A DNA stretch of 46,216 nt from an uncultured Deferribacteraceae bacterium (GTDB lineage: Bacteria; Chrysiogenota; Deferribacteres; CAMZNJ01): assembly GCA_947313825.1 (NCBI GenBank), contig CAMZNJ010000002.1:1-46216 (forward strand), written 5' to 3'. This document shows, in pieces, positions 7,511 to 37,369 of the stretch. The stretch's first letter is position 1. Each line of letters starts with the position of its first letter. Below the pieces are notes generated by a model. It was not told where the DNA came from, did not search any database, and was given only the letters and a program-made list of their open reading frames with translations. The translations under genes and the position numbers were made by a program.

Positions 7511-10174
7511 CTAGGCATAGATACCCCTAGGCGAGGAATACCCACTGGAGCTAGCACCCACGTTGGACGGGTCGCCTGAATGGGCTGAGTCGTCGTTGTT
7601 ATCTGATGACGAACGGCTGTTGATGAACTGACGCCTAGCAAGGGCATCCATATGGGCATTGGCTCCGTTGGAATCGGCAAACGCCTCCCCATCGCCACTA
7701 CCGTTGAGGTCGAGCTCCTCCAAAGTAATACCGTTCTCAGCAAGGGCATCCTTCAACTGCTGGAGATTATTCTCAATGGTTTTGTGAGCTTGAGGAGTAT
7801 CCGTCAGAAGGCGGGCATACAAACTGCCGTTACGCTCAACTAACTCCACGTGCACCTTGCCAAGGTTGGCGGGGGTGAGCTGTACCCAAAGACGCTGAAC
7901 ACTATCCTTGCCATTGCTGGCACTGGAGCTGATGAGCTTGCCAAGACGAAGAACATCTTCACCATGGCGAAGGTGTGTGCTTTGGGCACCGTTGGCGTTA
8001 CTGCTGTGGAGCTGGCGAGACTGAAGAGAAGCTTGGGAAGATTGGGCAAATGGCGACTGGAATAAGGACGACTGAGGGAGCTGTGAACCTCCCGCCATGG
8101 CATCAAGTTTGTAGAGGGGGGTGGAGTCGAGGCTAGTCGCTATGCTCATACCCTGACCCTGACCCTGACCCATGGTGGGGCTGGCACTGCTGGGAGCCTG
8201 AGAGGTGGGGGAACCACCATCACCCTTGCCACCGAGACGGGCAGAGATATTGTCCCCTTGGGGGAGAACTGAGAGGGGCTTGCGAGTGGATGCGGTGTTG
8301 TGGGTTGGGTTGTCGCCATCAGAGGAAACCCTCGCACCGTCAGAACGATCGGAACGATCGGAACGAGAGGAACGTCGCGACGATGAACCCTCTAAAGTTA
8401 TGGCTGAGTCGCTACGGGTAATACTTGCCTGTATGGACGACTCAGCATCGCTAAGACCACCTAAGCCCGTAACCACAGCACTCGGCGTTACTTGTGCTTG
8501 TGTTGGCTGTGCTTGAGCCTGTGCCTGTGTTTGCTGTGCTTGCGTTGCCTGTGTTTGCGTTGCCTGTGTTTGTGTTGCCTGTGCTTGAGCCTGTGCCTGT
8601 GTTGCCTGTGCCTGTGTTGCCTGTGTTTGCGTTGGCTGTGTTTGTGTTGCCTGTGCCTGAGCCTGTGTTGCTTGAGCCTGTGCCTGTGTTGATTGTGCTT
8701 GTGTTGCCTGTGCCTGTGTTGGTTGAGCTTGTGTTGGCTGAGCCTGTGTTGGCTGTGCTTGCGTTGCCTGTGCCTGTGTTGCTTGAGCCTGTGCCTGTGT
8801 TGATTGTGCCTGTGTTGGCGTTAGTGTATCGGCTTGGGGCAAGCCTTTAAGATTAAGAGTGCTATTAACATTACTCGATGCCTTATCTGCTTTCAGGTGG
8901 GAAATTTCTTCCCCTTTAGTGGAGTTTACACCTAGCTCCTTTGTTTGAGGCTCTGAGGGCTGGGAAATTTTTTCCCCCTGCGTATCAGTTGTCGCCAAGG
9001 TCGCCTGCTTACCCTGCCCTGAGATGGTATTCATCAGGGTATTGAGTAGGGTATTGAGGGGAGGTGTTGCTGAGTTTTGCCCTGTTGTGGCTTTTGTTTG
9101 TGCAGGGTTTGTTGCCTCATCCGCCGAACCCTCCGCATTAACTTGTACTGTTACTTGCGTAATGGTTGACGTTATTTTGTCAAAAAGGGAGCTAGCACTG
9201 TCGGGTGCGTTTTGGAGTCCCTGTGCTAGTAGGAGCTCAATCTTCTCCATTATGCCCAGTATGTTCTGTGTGTTAGTGGCGTTGATGCTGTTGTTGGTTG
9301 CAGTTTGTGTTTCTGTTGCGGTGATGCTTTGGGGTACGTTGACTGTTTCCCCATGGAGAACAGTTGCACCGTTGAGATTGTTTTCGTTGCCTTCACTGTT
9401 AGCAAGATTGCTGAGGTTGCTGAGGTTATCGAGGTTATCGAGATTGCCTGTGAGCTGTGTGGCGATGTTGCGTAGCAGATGGATTAGGTATGCTAGGTCG
9501 TTTGTTGTGCTGTCCAGTGTTTGGATATTTTCCTGTATCTGCTTATTTGGTATGTCGGCAATGGATACTAGCCAATCTTCGAGGGAGTCTGCTATTTGGT
9601 TGATTACGTCCATGGGAGTTTGTGTGCTAGCTGTTTGTGTGTTTTCGGCTTGTGCATGAAGTTTTTGGTTTTCTGTATTGGTGTTTGTGTTGTCAACATT
9701 ATCTTTTACGGCTACGTCAACAGCTACGTCAACAGCTACGTCAACATTGGCAGATTCTTTTGCGGTTGAGGCAGTTGTTTCCCTTTGGATGTAGTCGGCA
9801 AACTTGCGAACGGTAGGGCTGATGACAGGTTCAGGTTTTGGTGTGTTGTTGTGCCCTTTGGAGGTGTATTCGAGGGCGGAAGAGGTGCTGTTGTGTGATG
9901 GGGTGAAGGTGGGTTGTTTCTCCCACGACTTTGCTGTTGGTTGTGCGAACGGGTTAGGGGCGAACTGGTTAGGGGCGAACGGTTTTGAGTTGTTTGCGTT
10001 TTTGGAGAAGCCGCCGTATGTTGTTTGGTTGTTGAAGTGGTTTGATTTGCTGCTTGGTGGGAGCAAGTACGACAGGAAAGGTGATTTGGAGGGGGCACCT
10101 AGCGAGCTTGATTCACTGCTTTTGGGTGGAGTGAAATCGCTTTTTAGGAAAGAGCTATCAATGTTAAATTTCAT
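7511..10174 (-). CDS. fliK: Flagellar hook-length control protein FliK
   Basis: FliK is the secreted ruler that sets hook length and switches export from hook to filament subunits. The conserved Flg_hook domain is near the C-terminus (about 766-821, LTPANLGKVHVELVE then TIENNLQQLKDAL). The rest is Gln/Ser/Thr/Asn-rich, as in other rulers. Residues about 452-565 are a nearly pure TQAQ/QATQ microsatellite tract, and a DVAV repeat lies near residue 150. At 887 residues it is about twice the enteric length, matching the enlarged FlgE and FlgD. ATG at 10174 is preceded by AGAGGGA. It is the first gene of the hook operon and is preceded by a sigma54-type promoter. Confidence 0.88.
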   Translation of the reverse strand: MKFNIDSSFLKSDFTPPKSSESSSLGAPSKSPFLSYLLPPSSKSNHFNNQTTYGGFSKNANNSKPFAPNQFAPNPFAQPTAKSWEKQPTFTPSHNSTSSALEYTSKGHNNTPKPEPVISPTVRKFADYIQRETTASTAKESANVDVAVDVAVDVAVKDNVDNTNTNTENQKLHAQAENTQTASTQTPMDVINQIADSLEDWLVSIADIPNKQIQENIQTLDSTTNDLAYLIHLLRNIATQLTGNLDNLDNLSNLSNLANSEGNENNLNGATVLHGETVNVPQSITATETQTATNNSINATNTQNILGIMEKIELLLAQGLQNAPDSASSLFDKITSTITQVTVQVNAEGSADEATNPAQTKATTGQNSATPPLNTLLNTLMNTISGQGKQATLATTDTQGEKISQPSEPQTKELGVNSTKGEEISHLKADKASSNVNSTLNLKGLPQADTLTPTQAQSTQAQAQATQAQATQAQPTQAQPTQAQPTQAQATQAQSTQAQAQATQAQAQATQTQPTQTQATQAQATQAQAQAQATQTQATQTQATQAQQTQAQAQAQPTQAQVTPSAVVTGLGGLSDAESSIQASITRSDSAITLEGSSSRRSSRSDRSDRSDGARVSSDGDNPTHNTASTRKPLSVLPQGDNISARLGGKGDGGSPTSQAPSSASPTMGQGQGQGMSIATSLDSTPLYKLDAMAGGSQLPQSSLFQSPFAQSSQASLQSRQLHSSNANGAQSTHLRHGEDVLRLGKLISSSASNGKDSVQRLWVQLTPANLGKVHVELVERNGSLYARLLTDTPQAHKTIENNLQQLKDALAENGITLEELDLNGSGDGEAFADSNGANAHMDALARRQFINSRSSSDNNDDSAHSGDPSNVGASSSGYSSPRGIYA
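8480..8820 (-). repeat. In-frame TQAQ microsatellite inside fliK
   Basis: Array of 6- and 12-base units (ACACAG/GCACAG type on the coding strand) encoding Thr-Gln-Ala-Gln repeats for about 110 residues. Units vary by single substitutions and all preserve frame. The tract lies in the ruler part of FliK, before the conserved export-switch domain. Confidence 0.9.
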
Positions 10175-13343: not shown

Positions 13344-14159
13344 ATGGCAAACAGAAAAATAGTGGAAACCGTGGAAACCGTGGAAACCGTGGTTGTACCA
13401 TTCGGATACGACGCCTACGTGAACGCATGCAGGGAGAGTCTGAAAACACAAATACCGTTTATCACCATTACAGACACAATCTACGGCATTGCAGTACCCT
13501 ACACAACTAGTGGCGGGATGATGAACATGATAGAAAAGGTATGCCACATAAAACAGAGGACGAACACAGAGCAAACAACAGGAACACACAAAGGGAACAA
13601 CAAACGTATCCCCCTTCTAGTAGGATCCATGGAGCAACTCAAAGGGCTGGGAGTGGTGGACAACACAACAACTGAAACCATGGATACCTACTACCGAAAC
13701 CGGTGCAACCCACATGCTGGTGGTGCTGGTGGTGTTGCTGGCGGTGTTGCTGGTGTTGCTGGTGGTGGTGCTGGTGGTGCTAGCGGTGTTGCTCTGCCAT
13801 ACACACCCACAACACTTGTGGTGGAGCAAAGAACCAACACACCACTCAATATCTACGCAAACCACGAAGATACATTAGGACAGAACACGCTGGGCATTCG
13901 ACTAGTTGCCCCCAACTACGACCACTATGCCAACACAGCTGTTGCAAGGGAGTTGAGTCGAGGGATTACTGCCACGGTGCCCATATTCGCCACTAGTGCC
14001 AACATTAGCGGTGAACCATACGTGCACGACTGGAAGCACATCCTGCACCTATTCAACGGCATGGTGGGCACACTACTCTACACAGAGGACAGAAGCAACC
14101 CCACACCCTCACAGGTTATCTCCCTTGTGGGCAACAACCATGGGGCTCAACTCAGGTAA
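13344..14159 (+). CDS. tsaC: TsaC/YrdC-family threonylcarbamoyl-AMP synthase with low-complexity insert
   Basis: TsaC makes threonylcarbamoyl-AMP for the t6A37 modification of ANN-decoding tRNAs. Family elements seen in this 271-residue protein: TDTIYGI (42-48), KQR at 70-72 (the KxR motif), LLVGS (91-95), LPYTPTTLVV (151-160), LGIRLVAP (183-190), TSANISGEP (217-225) and TPSQVISL. Residues about 125-149 are a Gly/Ala/Val run, encoded by GGTGCTGGTGTT-type triplets and inserted before the substrate-loop strand. The N-terminus carries three GTGGAAACC nonamers (VETVETVET). No clear ribosome site is visible; coupling to the upstream lipoprotein gene is likely. Activity is probable because the KxR and SAN motifs are intact. 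Confidence 0.8.
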   Translation: MANRKIVETVETVETVVVPFGYDAYVNACRESLKTQIPFITITDTIYGIAVPYTTSGGMMNMIEKVCHIKQRTNTEQTTGTHKGNNKRIPLLVGSMEQLKGLGVVDNTTTETMDTYYRNRCNPHAGGAGGVAGGVAGVAGGGAGGASGVALPYTPTTLVVEQRTNTPLNIYANHEDTLGQNTLGIRLVAPNYDHYANTAVARELSRGITATVPIFATSANISGEPYVHDWKHILHLFNGMVGTLLYTEDRSNPTPSQVISLVGNNHGAQLR

Positions 14160-16106: not shown

Positions 16107-17306
16107 ATGTCTCAAAAACATATCGTAGTTGTAGGTACTAGCTTTGCCGGTTACACAGCTGCCCTAAAGATTCGCGAAGGGCTCGGAGCAGAACACAAAA
16201 TCACCGTCATCGATAGGCAAGACAAATTTGTCTTCATACCCTCATTAATATGGTACCCATTCGGTATTCGCAAAGCAAAACAAATTAGCTTCGCCGTTTC
16301 ACCCGTGTACAAAAAAAAGAACATCGACTTCATGCTCGATGAAGTACTCTCTTTCGACCTCGACAACCGTACGGTAATCACCGAAACAGGGAAAGTCCCT
16401 TACGATTACCTCGTTGTTGCCACAGGACCAAAAGTGGACTTCGCCGCTATTCCAGGACTCGTTCCAGGGGAAACAGCCAACTCCATCTGCACAATCGAAC
16501 ACGCTGAAGAAGCAAAAGACTCATGGGAAAAATTCCTGCAAAACCCCGGACCCGTTGTTGTGGGTGCCGCTCAAGAGGCTGCATGCTTCGGTGCCGCATA
16601 CGAATTCGTCTTCAACGTACGCTACCAACTCAAGAAAAACAAACTACTCAAAAAAGCACCAATACACTTCGTAACATCAGAACCATTCCTAGGACATTTC
16701 GGAATTGGCGGATTTGGCAAAGGTGCAGCAATGTGTACCATGATGTTCAAAAGAATGGGGATTACTGGACACTACAATACCGATATCAAAGAAGTTACCA
16801 AAGATAGTGTTATACTAGGCGACGGAACCAAAATCGACTCGAAATACACAATGATTATTCCGCGATTCAGAGGCGTAGATGCTGTTGTTAACTCAAAAGG
16901 ACTCGCAAACCCCAAAGGGTTCATCCCCACAACAGACGAATACCAACACGTTGACTACCCCGAAGTTTACGCAGCGGGTATTGCTGTTGCTGTTGCTGCT
17001 CCATTTGAAACACAGTTCGGCTGTGCTGTACCAAAAACTGGCTACCCTAGTGAAGTTATGGCAGAAGTTGCTGCACACAACATTATTGCCGACATTACAG
17101 GCGAAGGGGAACGTCATCAAAAAGAATTTGCCGACATCGATGCGAAATGTATCATGGACGCAGGAAACATGGGTATGATTATCCTTGGCGACAAAATGCT
17201 TGGCGAACGCAAAAAAGAGAAAATTATTCCAGGACCATGGGCTCACTGGGGCAAATTGGCTTTTGAAGCGTACTTCATGTACACACGTCGTAGGGGTAAA
17301 GTTTAA
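16107..17306 (+). CDS. sqr: Sulfide:quinone oxidoreductase (FAD-dependent)
   Basis: A 399-residue flavoprotein of the SQR/flavocytochrome c family. It oxidises sulfide to polysulfide or sulfur at the membrane face and passes electrons to quinone. The N-terminal FAD fold has GTSFAG at 10-15 and the second glycine motif ATGPK at 105-109. Three cysteines match the known catalytic set: Cys128 (NSICTIEHAEE), Cys160 (QEAACFGA) and Cys358 (DAKCIMDAGN). Two more lie at 210 and 326. The C-terminal GKLAFEAYFMYTRRRGKV is amphipathic and basic, as expected for membrane docking. AGGAGGA precedes the ATG by 9 bases. Strong promoter upstream, duplicated terminator downstream: a single-gene unit. Confidence 0.93.
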   Translation: MSQKHIVVVGTSFAGYTAALKIREGLGAEHKITVIDRQDKFVFIPSLIWYPFGIRKAKQISFAVSPVYKKKNIDFMLDEVLSFDLDNRTVITETGKVPYDYLVVATGPKVDFAAIPGLVPGETANSICTIEHAEEAKDSWEKFLQNPGPVVVGAAQEAACFGAAYEFVFNVRYQLKKNKLLKKAPIHFVTSEPFLGHFGIGGFGKGAAMCTMMFKRMGITGHYNTDIKEVTKDSVILGDGTKIDSKYTMIIPRFRGVDAVVNSKGLANPKGFIPTTDEYQHVDYPEVYAAGIAVAVAAPFETQFGCAVPKTGYPSEVMAEVAAHNIIADITGEGERHQKEFADIDAKCIMDAGNMGMIILGDKMLGERKKEKIIPGPWAHWGKLAFEAYFMYTRRRGKV

Positions 17307-17328: not shown

Positions 17329-17374
17329 AGCCTGTCGAGGTTGCAACGTGGTTGTTTCTTTGGCAGGCTTTTTT
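17329..17374 (+). terminator. Rho-independent terminator, first copy
   Basis: AGCCTG (17329-17334) pairs with CAGGCT (17364-17369), with an internal GTTGCAAC palindrome, followed by six T. It begins 23 bases after the sqr stop codon. Confidence 0.8.
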
Positions 17375-17389
17375 GTTACTACTGTTATG

Positions 17390-17435
17390 AGCCTGTCGAG
17401 GTTGCAACGTGGTTGTTTCTTTGGCAGGCTTTTTT
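17390..17435 (+). terminator. Rho-independent terminator, second copy
   Basis: Identical to the first copy. The duplicated block is 49 bases (17329-17377 and 17390-17438) with a 12-base linker. Confidence 0.8.
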
Positions 17436-17612
17436 GTTGCCGGCGAGTCTATTTGAGGTTGAAAAAATCCTTCATGAACGATAAAAAGTTAATTTTTTTT
17501 TACCATACAGGAAAAAAATTTACACAATCAGTAAGAGAAAAAACCCTACAACGTAGTACCAGTAGGCTGGTAAGGGGTATGAAAATATTTTAAATTAAAA
17601 ATTAAATACTTG

Positions 17613-17641
17613 TTGACTAAGTAATTTTTGGGGCGTAGTAT
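17613..17641 (+). promoter_or_regulatory. Promoter for the SodC-like gene
   Basis: TTGACT (17613-17618), a 17-base spacer and TAGTAT (17636-17641). The same TAGTAT -10 occurs in the tRNA-Asn promoter. Leader about 85 bases. Confidence 0.6.
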
Positions 17642-17730
17642 CGATTCCAAGGCACGAAGAGTAAAAACCTTACGGCACTATTGTTAAAAAGTTGCTAGAG
17701 GGTTACAAAAAAACTTGGAGGGCGTGAACT

Positions 17731-18270
17731 ATGAAAAAAATACTTATGGTATTTGCGGTGATGCAGATGTTGGTAGTTGGGGCAGTATTTGCCGAAACAA
17801 TGGAAGTGAAAATGTACATGTTGGGCGAAAAGAAAATGAAGCCCATCGGAACAATTACCCTAACTCAAACAAAGTATGGAACAGTTTTCACCCCTGATCT
17901 AAAAGGATTGCCTCACGGTGTTCGTGGTTTTCATATTCTTGAAAATGCGGACTGCTCTAATACTTGGGACAAAAAAGGGAAAACAATCCTAGGTGGTGCT
18001 GCTGGCGGGCATTATGACCCAACAGGAAAAGCTATGCATGGTGCACCTTGGATGGAAACTAGCCATATGGGCGACCTACCTACAATCTACATTGACACCA
18101 AAGGACGTGCTACAATGCCAGTTCTTGCTCCACGTGTTTGGATGAAGAACTTGGGCAACCAATCCCTCGGAATCACTATGAAGAGCGACAACTACATGAA
18201 CAAAAACATGGGTGGCGGGGGCGAAATGATGGCATGCGGTGCTTTTTGGGCTAAAAAAATGATCAAATAA
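17731..18270 (+). CDS. sodC: Periplasmic SodC-family protein lacking Cu ligands
   Basis: This 179-residue protein has a signal peptide (cleavage likely after VFAE, about residue 22) and the Cu/Zn superoxide dismutase fold. Against bacterial SodC, the Zn site is intact: His94, His103, His112 and Asp115 (GGHYDP, MHGAP, SHMGD). The disulfide cysteines 75 and 169 are also kept. Of the copper-only ligands, His68 remains, but the partner in GFHIH is Leu70 and the later MVH histidine is Thr149. The substrate-guiding Arg of GGGGERYACG is Met166. Ordinary dismutase activity is therefore unlikely. B. subtilis YojM is a known paralogue lacking Cu ligands. GGAGG lies 9 bases before the ATG. Single-gene unit with its own promoter and terminator. 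Confidence 0.88.
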   Translation: MKKILMVFAVMQMLVVGAVFAETMEVKMYMLGEKKMKPIGTITLTQTKYGTVFTPDLKGLPHGVRGFHILENADCSNTWDKKGKTILGGAAGGHYDPTGKAMHGAPWMETSHMGDLPTIYIDTKGRATMPVLAPRVWMKNLGNQSLGITMKSDNYMNKNMGGGGEMMACGAFWAKKMIK

Positions 18271-18317: not shown

Positions 18318-18356
18318 CCCCTTGTGTGCCTTTCGAGACTCACAAGGGGATTTTTT
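18318..18356 (+). terminator. Rho-independent terminator after the SodC-like gene
   Basis: CCCCTTGTG (18318-18326) and CACAAGGGG (18341-18349) form a perfect 9-bp stem, followed by A and six T. Confidence 0.9.
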
Positions 18357-24652: not shown

Positions 24653-24660
24653 GGGCACGC

Positions 24661-24845
24661 ACGCTACGCCACAGGTGGCACGCACGCCACAGCTACTCCA
24701 CAGGTGGCACGCACGCCACAGCTACGCCACACAGCTACTCCACAGGTGGCACGCACACCACAGCGACACCACAGAGCTACGCCACAGGTGGCACGCACAC
24801 CACAGCTACGCCACAGGTGGCACGCACGCCACAGCTACTCCACAG
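24661..24845 (+). repeat. About 29-bp minisatellite (GCCACAGGTGGCACGCAC)
   Basis: Five or six imperfect copies of a unit containing the small palindrome CCACAGGTGG, then CACGC and CCACAGCTAC. The array fills the space between the TPR gene and the convergent DsbA-like gene and overlaps the last few codons of the latter. Confidence 0.85.
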
Positions 24846-25527
24846 AGCGGGACGCTTCCGACGCCATGAAGCTGTCCAACTTTTGGCACAAATCAACATA
24901 GTCAGAATAAGTGTCGAAAACGCGGACAGTTTCACCGTTGCGGTCGGTGTAGCACAGTGTGGGGTAAAGACCGACGCCCATGTTACGCTTTATCTGTACA
25001 CCATGGTCGAAATCGCTCAGTGATTTGTCGGAATTGTGGTACTCCACGAATAGGTCGAAATCCAACGTGTTGCGTGCGTGGTCGTTTTCCGCCATGAAGC
25101 GGTTGAATATTTCAAGGTTGTCGTTTGGGTTGAGTGCAACAAGTGAGTGGTAGAAGAAGCAGTTGCTCACGTGCTGTGAGTAAGCGTATTCTAACTGAGG
25201 TGCTTGGTGTTTAACGCTGTAAATGCTTCGCCCCGCCCATTGGCTAGAGAGGAGAGGTTTTTTCTCACGGATAAACGTTTTGTAAACCTCGGGCACAGTG
25301 GCACACGTGCGATTGTAGAGTGATGCTTCGAGCTTGTCCACAACGGGGAAAACATTGCTGGCAACGCCGTCTAGGGAGTCGTACAGCTCACCATGGTGCA
25401 TTTCAAAGTTAATACTATCTTTGTAGGTATTCATCGCTTTGATAATATTGGTGTAGGTGGCGTTGGAGTAGCCACAGTGGGTATCGTGGAAGTAGTGGAG
25501 GGTTGGTAGTTGACTAGTTTTACTCAT
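24835..25527 (-). CDS. DsbA-like thioredoxin-fold protein with CxxS motif
   Basis: A 230-residue protein of the DsbA/FrnE-like thioredoxin superfamily. The active-site segment reads DTHCGYSNA, so the usual CxxC is CGYS with only the first cysteine. The cis-proline loop is GVGLYPTL near the C-terminus and a helical insert lies between, as in this family. There is no signal peptide, so it is probably cytoplasmic. A single active-site Cys points to an isomerase, glutathione-dependent or non-redox role rather than a disulfide oxidase. The ATG at 25527 is preferred over one two codons upstream (25533), because AGGAG (25537-25541) is 9 bases from the former and only 3 from the latter. Its 3' end runs into the minisatellite. 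Confidence 0.75.
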   Translation of the reverse strand: MSKTSQLPTLHYFHDTHCGYSNATYTNIIKAMNTYKDSINFEMHHGELYDSLDGVASNVFPVVDKLEASLYNRTCATVPEVYKTFIREKKPLLSSQWAGRSIYSVKHQAPQLEYAYSQHVSNCFFYHSLVALNPNDNLEIFNRFMAENDHARNTLDFDLFVEYHNSDKSLSDFDHGVQIKRNMGVGLYPTLCYTDRNGETVRVFDTYSDYVDLCQKLDSFMASEASRSVE

Positions 25528-28001: not shown

Positions 28002-28337
28002 TTGGCGGGTGCTGGTGAGTGCTGGCGTGTTGCTGGCGGTTGCTGGCGGATGTTGGTGAGTGCTGGCGGATGCTGGTGAGTGCTGGCGGGATGCTGGCGG
28101 ATGCTGGTGAGTGCTGGTGCGTTGCTGGCGGATGTTGGTGAGTGCTGGCGGATGCTGGCGGGTGCTGGCGGGATGCTGGTGAGTGCTGGCGGATGCTGGC
28201 GGGATGCTAGTGCGTTGCAGGCGGGATGCTGGCGGATGCTGGTGAGTGCTGGCGGATGCTGGTGAGTGCTGGCGGGTGCTGGCGTGTTGCTGGTGTTGTT
28301 CTAAGTTTCTGGCGTTATGTTTTTTGGAGTGCTTTAA
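28002..28337 (+). repeat. GT-rich minisatellite upstream of aroA
   Basis: About 290 bases (28002-28292) of imperfect repeats of GCTGGCGGATGCTGGTGAGT and shorter variants fill the gap before aroA. Reading frames through it are repeat artefacts. The last 45 bases hold the aroA ribosome site. The array interrupts an otherwise usual gene order. Confidence 0.85.
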
Positions 28338-29909
28338 GTGTTGGGATTTCAGGCCGGAAGCAAGCGGACACGATTTTTACGCGGTATCATCATGCCTGCC
28401 CCCGACAAATCCATAACACACCGTGCTCTTATCCTTTCTAGCATGAGCGTTGGCTCCTCCTTCATTGTCAACCCCCTTGTATCCAAAGATACGACTGCCA
28501 CCATGGATGCTCTTCGTGCCCTTGGTGTGCAGATTAGCCAAAACCAAATGGGCACAACTGTTGTGTCGTCCGGTTATCAGCATTTTACTGAGCCACGTGG
28601 CGTTATTGACTGTTGTAACTCAGGCACCACAGCACGCCTTCTTGCTGGTGTTTTGGCACCGAGTGCGTTCACTACGGTTTTGACGGGGGATGACTCCCTG
28701 CGTGGCAGACCCATGGGGCGTGTTTCAACCCCTTTACGTGCTCTAGGTGCGAATATTTTTGGCAGATCTGATGCCACTCGCCTCCCCATGTGCATTGCCC
28801 CACACTCAGCACACTCAGCACACTCAGCACACTCAGCACACTCAGCACACTCAGCACACTCAGCACACTCAGCACACTCAGCACACTCAGCACACACAGC
28901 ACACTCAGCACACTCAGCACACTCAGCACGTAACTCCTCCCCCGAGGCGACCACGACCATTGTTTTGCGTGGTGAAGTTCCGTCGGCTCAGGTTAAGTCG
29001 GCGATTTTGCTGGCGGGTATTCAGCTTGATGGCAAGACGGTTTACGAGGAGCCCGTGGGGCATGGTAGTCGCGATCATACCGAGCGTATGCTCCCCATTT
29101 ATGGTGCTGACGTTTCCATTTCGGACGGTGCTGGTGTTGCTGGCGGTGTTGCTGGCGGTGGTGCTGGCACTAGTGGTTTGCGGGTCATTACTGTTTCCGG
29201 TGGTGCCCCCCTTGTTGGCACCGGCGTTCACATCCCTGGGGACATATCTTCGGCGTCGTTTTTCATTGGTGCAGTATTTTTGTGGTCAGGGTCTTCCATC
29301 AAGGTTCAGGGTGTTGGCTTAAACCCGACACGTATCGGTTTCCTTGATATTCTGGTTCGTATGGGTGCAGATTTGAGTTATGAGATTGTTGGCGACTCCC
29401 TTGAACCGTCCGGATTTATCGATGTTGAGCATTGTGAGCTCTCGGGTGTGGATGTTTCCCCTTTGGAAGTTTCTGCCATGGTGGATGAGATACCTCTTTT
29501 GATGATGCTTTCTGTTGTTGCGAGTTCACCGATAACTATTCGCGGTATTGGTGAGTTACGCCTCAAGGAGAGCGATCGCATTAAGTCCATGGTGTCGAAT
29601 TTGGCGAAAGTTGGTGTTGAGTCGGAATTCTTTTACGATAGTGCTGGCACGTCTGGCACGTCTGGCACGTCTGGTTCGGTATGTGAGTCCATTGTTCTGC
29701 ACCCCCGTCGTCGCGAAGGTGGTGCATTTGTGGGGCTACCATCTTCGAGCACCGTCGTTCTTGAGTCTTACCACGATCACCGCATTGCCATGGTGAATAT
29801 TCTTCTTGCAAAATACTTCCATGACAACATTGCTGTGGACGACATTACCCCTTTGGAAGTTTCGTTCCCCGGTTTTTTGCAGAAGCTTTCCACCTTGGAG
29901 CGGTCATAA
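28338..29909 (+). CDS. aroA: EPSP synthase AroA with tandem-repeat insertions
   Basis: AroA (5-enolpyruvylshikimate-3-phosphate synthase) joins PEP and shikimate-3-phosphate in aromatic amino acid synthesis. The conserved sites are all present: DKSITHRA (23-30), NSGTTARLL (94-102), GDDSLRGRPM (117-126), SAQVKSAILLAG, PGDISSASFF, DEIPLL, LRLKESDRI and YHDHRIAM. At 523 residues it is about 90 longer than usual because of three inserts: 14 HSA triplets at 156-197, a GVAGGVAGGGAG run at about 262-272, and GTSGTSGTSG at about 436-445. Each lies where a surface loop is expected, so activity is probably kept. GTG start with GGAG 8 bases upstream. Coding strand is GT-rich, unlike its neighbours. Followed by cmk. 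Confidence 0.93.
   Translation: MLGFQAGSKRTRFLRGIIMPAPDKSITHRALILSSMSVGSSFIVNPLVSKDTTATMDALRALGVQISQNQMGTTVVSSGYQHFTEPRGVIDCCNSGTTARLLAGVLAPSAFTTVLTGDDSLRGRPMGRVSTPLRALGANIFGRSDATRLPMCIAPHSAHSAHSAHSAHSAHSAHSAHSAHSAHSAHTAHSAHSAHSARNSSPEATTTIVLRGEVPSAQVKSAILLAGIQLDGKTVYEEPVGHGSRDHTERMLPIYGADVSISDGAGVAGGVAGGGAGTSGLRVITVSGGAPLVGTGVHIPGDISSASFFIGAVFLWSGSSIKVQGVGLNPTRIGFLDILVRMGADLSYEIVGDSLEPSGFIDVEHCELSGVDVSPLEVSAMVDEIPLLMMLSVVASSPITIRGIGELRLKESDRIKSMVSNLAKVGVESEFFYDSAGTSGTSGTSGSVCESIVLHPRRREGGAFVGLPSSSTVVLESYHDHRIAMVNILLAKYFHDNIAVDDITPLEVSFPGFLQKLSTLERS
28803..28928 (+). repeat. Fourteen in-frame nonamers in aroA
   Basis: CACTCAGCA repeated 14 times without interruption; unit 11 is CACACAGCA. 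Encodes (His-Ser-Ala)10, His-Thr-Ala, (His-Ser-Ala)3. Near-perfect identity suggests recent expansion. Confidence 0.95.
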
Positions 29910-36244: not shown

Positions 36245-37369
36245 ATGGCGGGCGGTGCAAGTATGGCAGGTGGAGCAGGTGGGGCAGGCGGTGCAGGTAT
36301 GGCAGGTGGAGCAGGCATGGTAAATGCGGACGAAAAGAGTATCAGGGGCAACAGCGAAGATACTCACAAGCAAGAACATGACGACAACAACCGTATGCCG
36401 TGGTCTGAATACGAACATGGTACACGCGAACATGGTACACGCATGCCTGAGGCAACCACCGACCACCTCGAAAGGGGAGAAGACACAACAACAACCATAA
36501 CAGAGAGTGCCGAAAACCATAACAATCAGGAGATAGCCCGACTACTGAGTAGGATTAACTCGTCGAAACTAGCACCATCGCCAGCACCTGAGCCATCGCC
36601 ATCACCATCGCCATCGCTAGTACCATCACCTGAGCCATCACCTGAGCCATCGCCATCGCCATCACCATCGCCATCACCATCGCCATCGTCAGCACCTGAG
36701 CCAGCACCGAAACCACACCACCTTGGGCACCGTCAACGCCTGAAAGACCGCTTCCTACTAAACAGCGAAAGCCTAGCCAATTACGAAATACTAGAGCTTC
36801 TCCTAGGGTACGTAATACGTGGCAGAGATGTGAAACGGGAAGCAAAAGACCTAGCCAAAGCATTCCCCGACTTATCACTCATACTGCAAGGGGAGTTCGC
36901 CGAAATACGTGGACTAGGCACTGAAGCCGAAATATTAATGAAAGTCATAAAAGAGTTTGGGGACAGGATAGATAGGCAAAAAGGGCGAAAAATAGTGTAC
37001 ATCCGAAGTGCCATGGATTCGTACAACTATGCCAAAGGCTTCATATCGTTCCAAAAACGTGAAATATTCATTGTGCTACTAATGACCAACGACAACGAAC
37101 TACTCGGACACAAAATCATGAACACAGGCACAGCAGACAGGGTCGCCATCTACCCCCGAGAAGTTATTGCCGAAGCAATAAAGTTTGGGGCAAGTCGCAT
37201 TGTAGTTGTCCACAACCACCTCGGCGGGAGCCCCCAACCATCACCACAAGACAAAAAACTAACCTCAAAACTCAACGACGCCTGCAATGTTTTAGAGATA
37301 TTCCTTGTTGACCACATAATAATCGCAGAAGGAACGTACTACTCATTTCGCGAAGGGGGCATGCTTTAA
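36245..37369 (+). CDS. radC: RadC-family JAMM/MPN+ protein with repeat-rich N-terminus
   Basis: A 374-residue protein whose last 220 residues are a complete RadC. A helical region (GHRQRLKDRFLLNSESLANY, then LELLLGYVIRGRDVK) is followed by the JAMM domain with the metal motif HNHLGGSPQPSPQD (His323, His325, Asp336). The biochemical role of RadC is unsettled; links to recombination and mobile-element biology have been reported. The first 155 residues are low complexity: AGGAGGAGGAG repeats at 1-24, then an acidic/His-rich linker, then PSPSPEPSPS repeats at about 110-152. The start is uncertain: no ribosome site stands before 36245, whereas GGTGGAG precedes an ATG at 36317. Close behind comM, likely one operon. 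Confidence 0.85.
   Translation: MAGGASMAGGAGGAGGAGMAGGAGMVNADEKSIRGNSEDTHKQEHDDNNRMPWSEYEHGTREHGTRMPEATTDHLERGEDTTTTITESAENHNNQEIARLLSRINSSKLAPSPAPEPSPSPSPSLVPSPEPSPEPSPSPSPSPSPSPSSAPEPAPKPHHLGHRQRLKDRFLLNSESLANYEILELLLGYVIRGRDVKREAKDLAKAFPDLSLILQGEFAEIRGLGTEAEILMKVIKEFGDRIDRQKGRKIVYIRSAMDSYNYAKGFISFQKREIFIVLLMTNDNELLGHKIMNTGTADRVAIYPREVIAEAIKFGASRIVVVHNHLGGSPQPSPQDKKLTSKLNDACNVLEIFLVDHIIIAEGTYYSFREGGML

Follow-up and report, generated by a model that had tools for sequence, protein, structure and literature searches.

A predicted exported SodC homologue lacking two copper ligands and the catalytic arginine, with an intact orthologue in a sister species of Deferribacteres

The sodC-like gene and its surroundings

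The window, by which we mean the whole 46 kb contig that was analysed (46,216 nucleotides), belongs to a metagenome-assembled genome (MAG) of 1.26 Mb that is 86% complete. It carries a 179-aa open reading frame whose product is a member of the Sod_Cu family (Pfam 2.8e-25, 89.7 bits against a cut-off of 28.9), and the features of the gene and its flanks are collected in Table 1. Among solved structures the product comes closest to P-class bacterial SodC proteins, the best match being that of Photobacterium leiognathi (1yai, E 1.3e-41), with 46–48% identity between the window protein and Photobacterium SodC. An AlphaFold2 model built from 13 sequences adopts the SodC fold with a mean pLDDT of 79.9, though the loop at residues 154–163 is of low confidence, and Foldseek matched this model to P-class SodC structures with TM-scores of 0.86–0.90 (normalised to the target). 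The signal peptide read from the sequence is MKKILMVFAVMQMLVVGAVFA, followed by ET after the cleavage point, suggesting that the protein is exported to the periplasm.

Table 1. Features of the sodC-like gene and its flanks in the window.
Feature	Position	Strand	Basis or remark
SQR III-like pyridine nucleotide-disulfide oxidoreductase, upstream neighbour	16107..17306	+	98% identical in sister species, order same
Promoter-like hexamers TTGACT-17-TAGTAT	17613..17641	+	Conserved with sister (TAATAT there)
Ribosome-binding site GGAGGG	17717..17722	+	Conserved in sister
sodC-like gene without copper site, 179 aa	17731..18270	+	ORF confirmed; Pfam and structure matches
Predicted signal peptide, cleavage after AVFA (residue 21)	17731..17793	+	Read from sequence; identical in sister species
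Arg65 at SOD1 His43 position (HGFHxH motif)	17923..17925	+	Alignment
His68, copper ligand, retained	17932..17934	+	Alignment with SodC relatives
Leu70 in place of copper-ligand His, codon CTT (sister CAT)	17938..17940	+	Alignment with sister
Cys75, disulfide partner, retained	17953..17955	+	Alignment
His94, bridging His, retained	18010..18012	+	Alignment
Zn ligands His103, His112, Asp115, retained	18037..18075	+	Alignment
Fast-diverging C-terminal segment, codons 147–179: dN 0.154, dS 0.66 (0.658)	18169..18267	+	Window against sister
Thr149 in place of copper-ligand His, codon ACT (sister CAC)	18175..18177	+	Alignment with sister
Met166 in place of catalytic Arg, codon ATG (sister CGC)	18226..18228	+	Alignment with sister
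Cys169, disulfide partner, retained	18235..18237	+	Alignment
Terminator-like inverted repeat CCCCTTGTG/CACAAGGGG, then T6	18318..18356	+	Conserved in sister

The sole congener found is M_Rainbow_MAG_00001, listed as 'uncultured Deferribacteraceae bacterium', and the within-genus comparison is thus one of two genomes. The family name Ca. Microvillispirillaceae has been proposed for Deferribacteres that inhabit the midgut of Rimicaris exoculata, a vent shrimp (PMC9636832). Name, class and site fit, and we infer that the source organism is of this midgut type from the deep-sea shrimp. The congener, referred to here as the sister species, has a sodC orthologue (L016 6001–6540) in the same genomic place that is 93% identical to the window SodC, and gene order around sodC is identical in both species over the 25 kb compared.

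The initial annotation credited the gene with strong expression signals of its own and placed it next to a sulfide-oxidising enzyme, and both descriptions held only in part. The -35/-10 pair, ribosome-binding site and terminator are conserved with the sister, but promoter-like hexamers occur at background level (2 found against 2.5 expected in shuffles). The 14-nt loop of the terminator repeat caused a terminator scan to miss it, and a search of the sodC leader for a riboswitch or other known RNA gave no match at the gathering score. The upstream neighbour is indeed SQR III-like, but it reaches 116 bits against the type III sulfide:quinone reductase model, far under the cut-off of 525. It ends 424 bp before the start of sodC and is a separate gene, equally syntenic in both species, which does not explain the copper-site loss. 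A stretch of ~100–120 bp 3′ of this gene (window 17336–17438) is present in one copy, and the sister flank has several tandem copies. Short-unit tandem arrays fill 61 rows for the 46 kb, some of them within predicted coding regions (arrays include 1–138, 8485–8819, 13715–13793, 24654–24849, 28003–28295, 28801–28929 and 36571–36703), an unusually high number for a reduced bacterial genome.

Copper, zinc and disulfide residues

Alignment confirmed the residue readings of the initial annotation, including its numbering: two of the four copper histidines are replaced by Leu70 and Thr149, the activity arginine is Met166, and both the zinc ligand set (H94/H103/H112/D115) and the disulfide pair (Cys75/Cys169) are complete. 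Its description of the protein as a zinc-type, copper-lacking relative of SodC is supported by these residues. We also looked for other histidines aligned to the copper site and found none. The protein has five histidines in all (62, 68, 94, 103 and 112), none of them new, and His62 is present in the sister too, so a replacement histidine is ruled out and the copper site cannot be filled by another His. Position 65 is Arg in both sister species and His in 67/73 SodC rows. The exported protein would be expected to fold with its disulfide and to load zinc at His94, His103, His112 and Asp115. Since only His68 and His94 of the copper cage remain, it should not dismutate superoxide.

The sister orthologue is intact, with all four copper histidines (including His70 and His149) and Arg166. 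Of the 12 residue differences between the two proteins, three are at the positions of Leu70, Thr149 and Met166. P-clade outgroup SodC are unanimous for His70, His149, Gly152 and Arg166, which places those changes on the window branch; by the same comparison Gly93Ser, Asn154Thr and probably Asp122Asn are changes on the sister branch. The most likely history is a single loss of the copper site, on the terminal branch leading to the window genome.

Survey and tree of other SodC

To place these two proteins we used an alignment of 73 genome loci (62 distinct) together with 12 SodC from IMG/VR contigs, a limited sample weighted to Campylobacterota and Deferribacterota. His at 70 and 149 is kept by all other aligned SodC (71 from genomes, 12 from IMG/VR), leaving the window alone among the 73 genome loci without His at 70 or 149. 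One other genome row, L033, is without a copper His (Asn at 68). The loss therefore appears recent and lineage-specific, as a 93% identical sister has the whole copper site and every other SodC aligned keeps both histidines.

In the tree, window and sister form a pair with support of 100/99 within a group of P-class SodC whose copper sites are intact, and L033 is placed elsewhere. Copper-lacking forms therefore do not make up one clade in this sample, a grouping that the initial annotation had raised. Nor do copper-less SodC form a clade of their own in Deferribacterota: all SodC-bearing relatives are intact apart from one copy in G040. This related Deferribacteres genome has a second, divergent, paralogue-like SodC (L015 / L047) in which Lys takes the place of the active-site Arg and the zinc loop is shortened. 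In the genus g12 (L011, L014) both disulfide cysteines of SodC are absent (Leu, Ala) and the copper site is kept, a further departure, of a reported type, from the canonical enzyme. A phage or mobile origin was also rejected: 12/12 IMG/VR SodC have all four copper histidines, and the window gene has a chromosomal setting whose gene order is conserved.

Divergence between the two species

Between 4 and 9 substitutions can be assigned to the window branch, and three of them fall on the five copper/Arg positions. If changes were random in the mature protein, the chance of this is 6e-5 (4 changes) to 1e-3 (9 changes). Conditional on one copper/Arg change it is 0.0015–0.013, a fairer figure since these very changes are the reason why the gene was chosen.

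For codons 1–146 the comparison of window and sister gave dN 0.013 and dS 0.119 (dN/dS about 0.11), as against the fast-diverging segment that follows. The dS of neighbouring genes between the species is about 0.25–0.69, so the two species are unusually alike in the leader and the front part of sodC, and not in its tail. The jump lies between 17560–18168 and 18169–18267, and the leader and first 36 codons are nearly identical with zero synonymous changes. Either a strong constraint on the front part or an earlier recombination event between the two lineages would account for the pattern.

A sequence that comes from a MAG and jumps in divergence at codon 147 could reflect misassembly or strain mixing. 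We consider such an artefact very improbable, as the altered segment is in frame, the flanking DNA is conserved and the terminator matches the sister, random errors would not pick out copper ligands and the arginine, and Leu70 lies outside the C-terminal segment.

Superoxide handling and the question of decay

Both species carry a class II superoxide reductase (SOR), which could handle superoxide instead of SodC. Neither a second SodC nor an Fe/Mn SOD was found in the window's own genome, from which another SOD could be missing since it is 86% complete, and no rubrerythrin was found in either genome. Each genome has one COX1-type oxidase and one CPx copper-type ATPase with a CxxC domain, and an organism-wide loss of copper is thus not supported as the cause of the copper-site loss. 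The NTEH tandem repeat of this ATPase (L052, L051) is ~3x longer in the window genome than in the sister, and further repeat stretches differ between the two genomes.

The main rival to our reading is early pseudogenisation, in which SodC becomes dispensable with an SOR and a low-oxygen gut niche, and a shrinking genome loses the active site first and the rest later. The SOR in both species fits this, as do the fast-diverging C-terminal segment and the small genome; symbiont MAGs are 1.25–1.36 Mb compared to 2.2–3.3 Mb for reference genomes (PMC9636832). However, the changes cluster on the copper/Arg positions rather than being spread, and zinc ligands, cysteines, signal peptide, ribosome-binding site and terminator are all intact. 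A pseudogene by truncation or frameshift is rejected outright, with no stop and no frameshift in the window sodC, and early decay as a whole seems to us unlikely, if worth taking seriously.

The initial annotation had argued from the expression signals that the gene is not decaying. It is right that the gene is not obviously broken, but such signals could be inherited from the time before the loss. That substitutions fell on copper/Arg positions, and not at random, is the better argument. Since the purifying selection evident from the two orthologues could likewise go back to before the copper-site loss, the absence of decay is likely but unproven.

Rather than decay, we favour, with some confidence, a young single-copy SodC orthologue, only recently deprived of its copper site and arginine and kept as a zinc-only, non-enzymatic exported protein. 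Both the site and the arginine would have gone in the lineage leading to the gut symbiont species. The protein would probably be retained to serve the periplasm in a metal-binding or structural, non-catalytic capacity, with superoxide left to the class II SOR.

Methionine richness

The mature window SodC contains 15 methionines and that of the sister 13. In the aligned mature domain this amounts to 9.4% for the window and 8.1% for the sister, compared to a median of 2.0% and a maximum of 3.4% in other SodC, and the binomial chance of the window content at the highest of these other values is 7e-4. No MsrA or MsrP-family gene turned up in either genome, which makes a renewable methionine sink for oxidants less likely.

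It is also conceivable that the protein now holds Cu(I) (or Ag(I)) as a soft metal through thioethers, with His68, His94, the nearby Met150, Met166 and Met167 and surface methionines binding copper that is not redox-cycled. The methionine content would suit such a site, the window gains Met166 at the Arg position, and the CPx ATPase and COX1-type oxidase of both genomes mean that copper handling exists. However, the methionine enrichment is older than the copper-site loss and shared with the intact sister, and need not be linked to that loss. No structure puts these methionines close to the site, and the loop at 154–163 of the model is of low confidence. We regard this as improbable. In its fullest form, the reading would have a SodC enzyme converted under selection, within sister-species divergence and in one genus of vent-shrimp gut symbionts, into a methionine-rich, zinc-loaded, Cu(I)-thioether metal protein of the periplasm through loss of the redox copper cage and the guiding Arg, and to this we give little credence.

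Comparison with known copper-less SOD homologues

Apart from its lost residues, the window SodC resembles the P-class proteins of Photobacterium, Neisseria and Salmonella in fold, zinc ligands, disulfide and export. It differs from them in the absence of two copper histidines and the active-site Arg, in a shortened electrostatic loop, and in having Arg65 for a structural His.

The closest parallel is YojM of B. subtilis, which has the bacterial SodC fold with two copper ligands missing and, as cited in later papers, was reported inactive and unable to bind copper (Banci 2005 in PMC8382915, PMC10432803); in the window it is His70 and His149 that are missing. PDB 1xtm is the YojM Y88H/P104H mutant, and the spacing of 16 between 88 and 104, taken from the PDB title, fits the second HxH His and the bridging His. 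Judged from this spacing, the lost ligand pair of the window seems to differ from that of YojM, as the window has lost the second HxH His and the distal His and kept the bridging His. The loss of Arg is additional in the window protein. YojM is only 25% identical to the window SodC, compared to 46–48% for Photobacterium SodC, and the tree placing the window with its intact sister did not include it. YojM is also called a paralogue, whereas the window SodC is the only SodC found and has a near-identical intact orthologue in the sister.

Two eukaryotic examples illustrate what a SOD fold may do after losing its copper site. Oyster dominin/cavortin is an extracellular SOD homologue without SOD activity (PMC13017621, PMC6530089); dominin is without an intact copper site and has been kept as a protein that binds metals or pathogens (PMC13017621, PMC6530089). 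As an animal plasma protein of an unrelated lineage, it illustrates a possible non-catalytic role and not membership. In domain II of CCS, also a SOD domain, the Cu site has been lost while fold and zinc binding were kept for a chaperone role (PMC13017621), but CCS is a cytosolic eukaryotic fusion acting on a SOD1 partner, and no second SodC partner was found in the window's own genome. Copper-less SOD homologues are therefore already known, and what sets this case apart is the loss of an apparently different ligand pair together with the Arg, the recent date of that loss, and the lack of an active paralogue among the genes found.

Since the known copper-less homologues are of old origin, the route from enzyme to non-enzyme in the SOD family has been hard to follow. 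A 93% identical pair from the same genomic place, with 12 residue differences of which three are copper ligands and the Arg, makes it directly testable which of the changes abolish copper binding. If SodC activity is gone, superoxide in the cytoplasm would fall to the SOR and the periplasm would have no known SOD. The sister pair also allows protein retention to be tested against decay in a host-restricted bacterium that has a superoxide reductase to fall back on.
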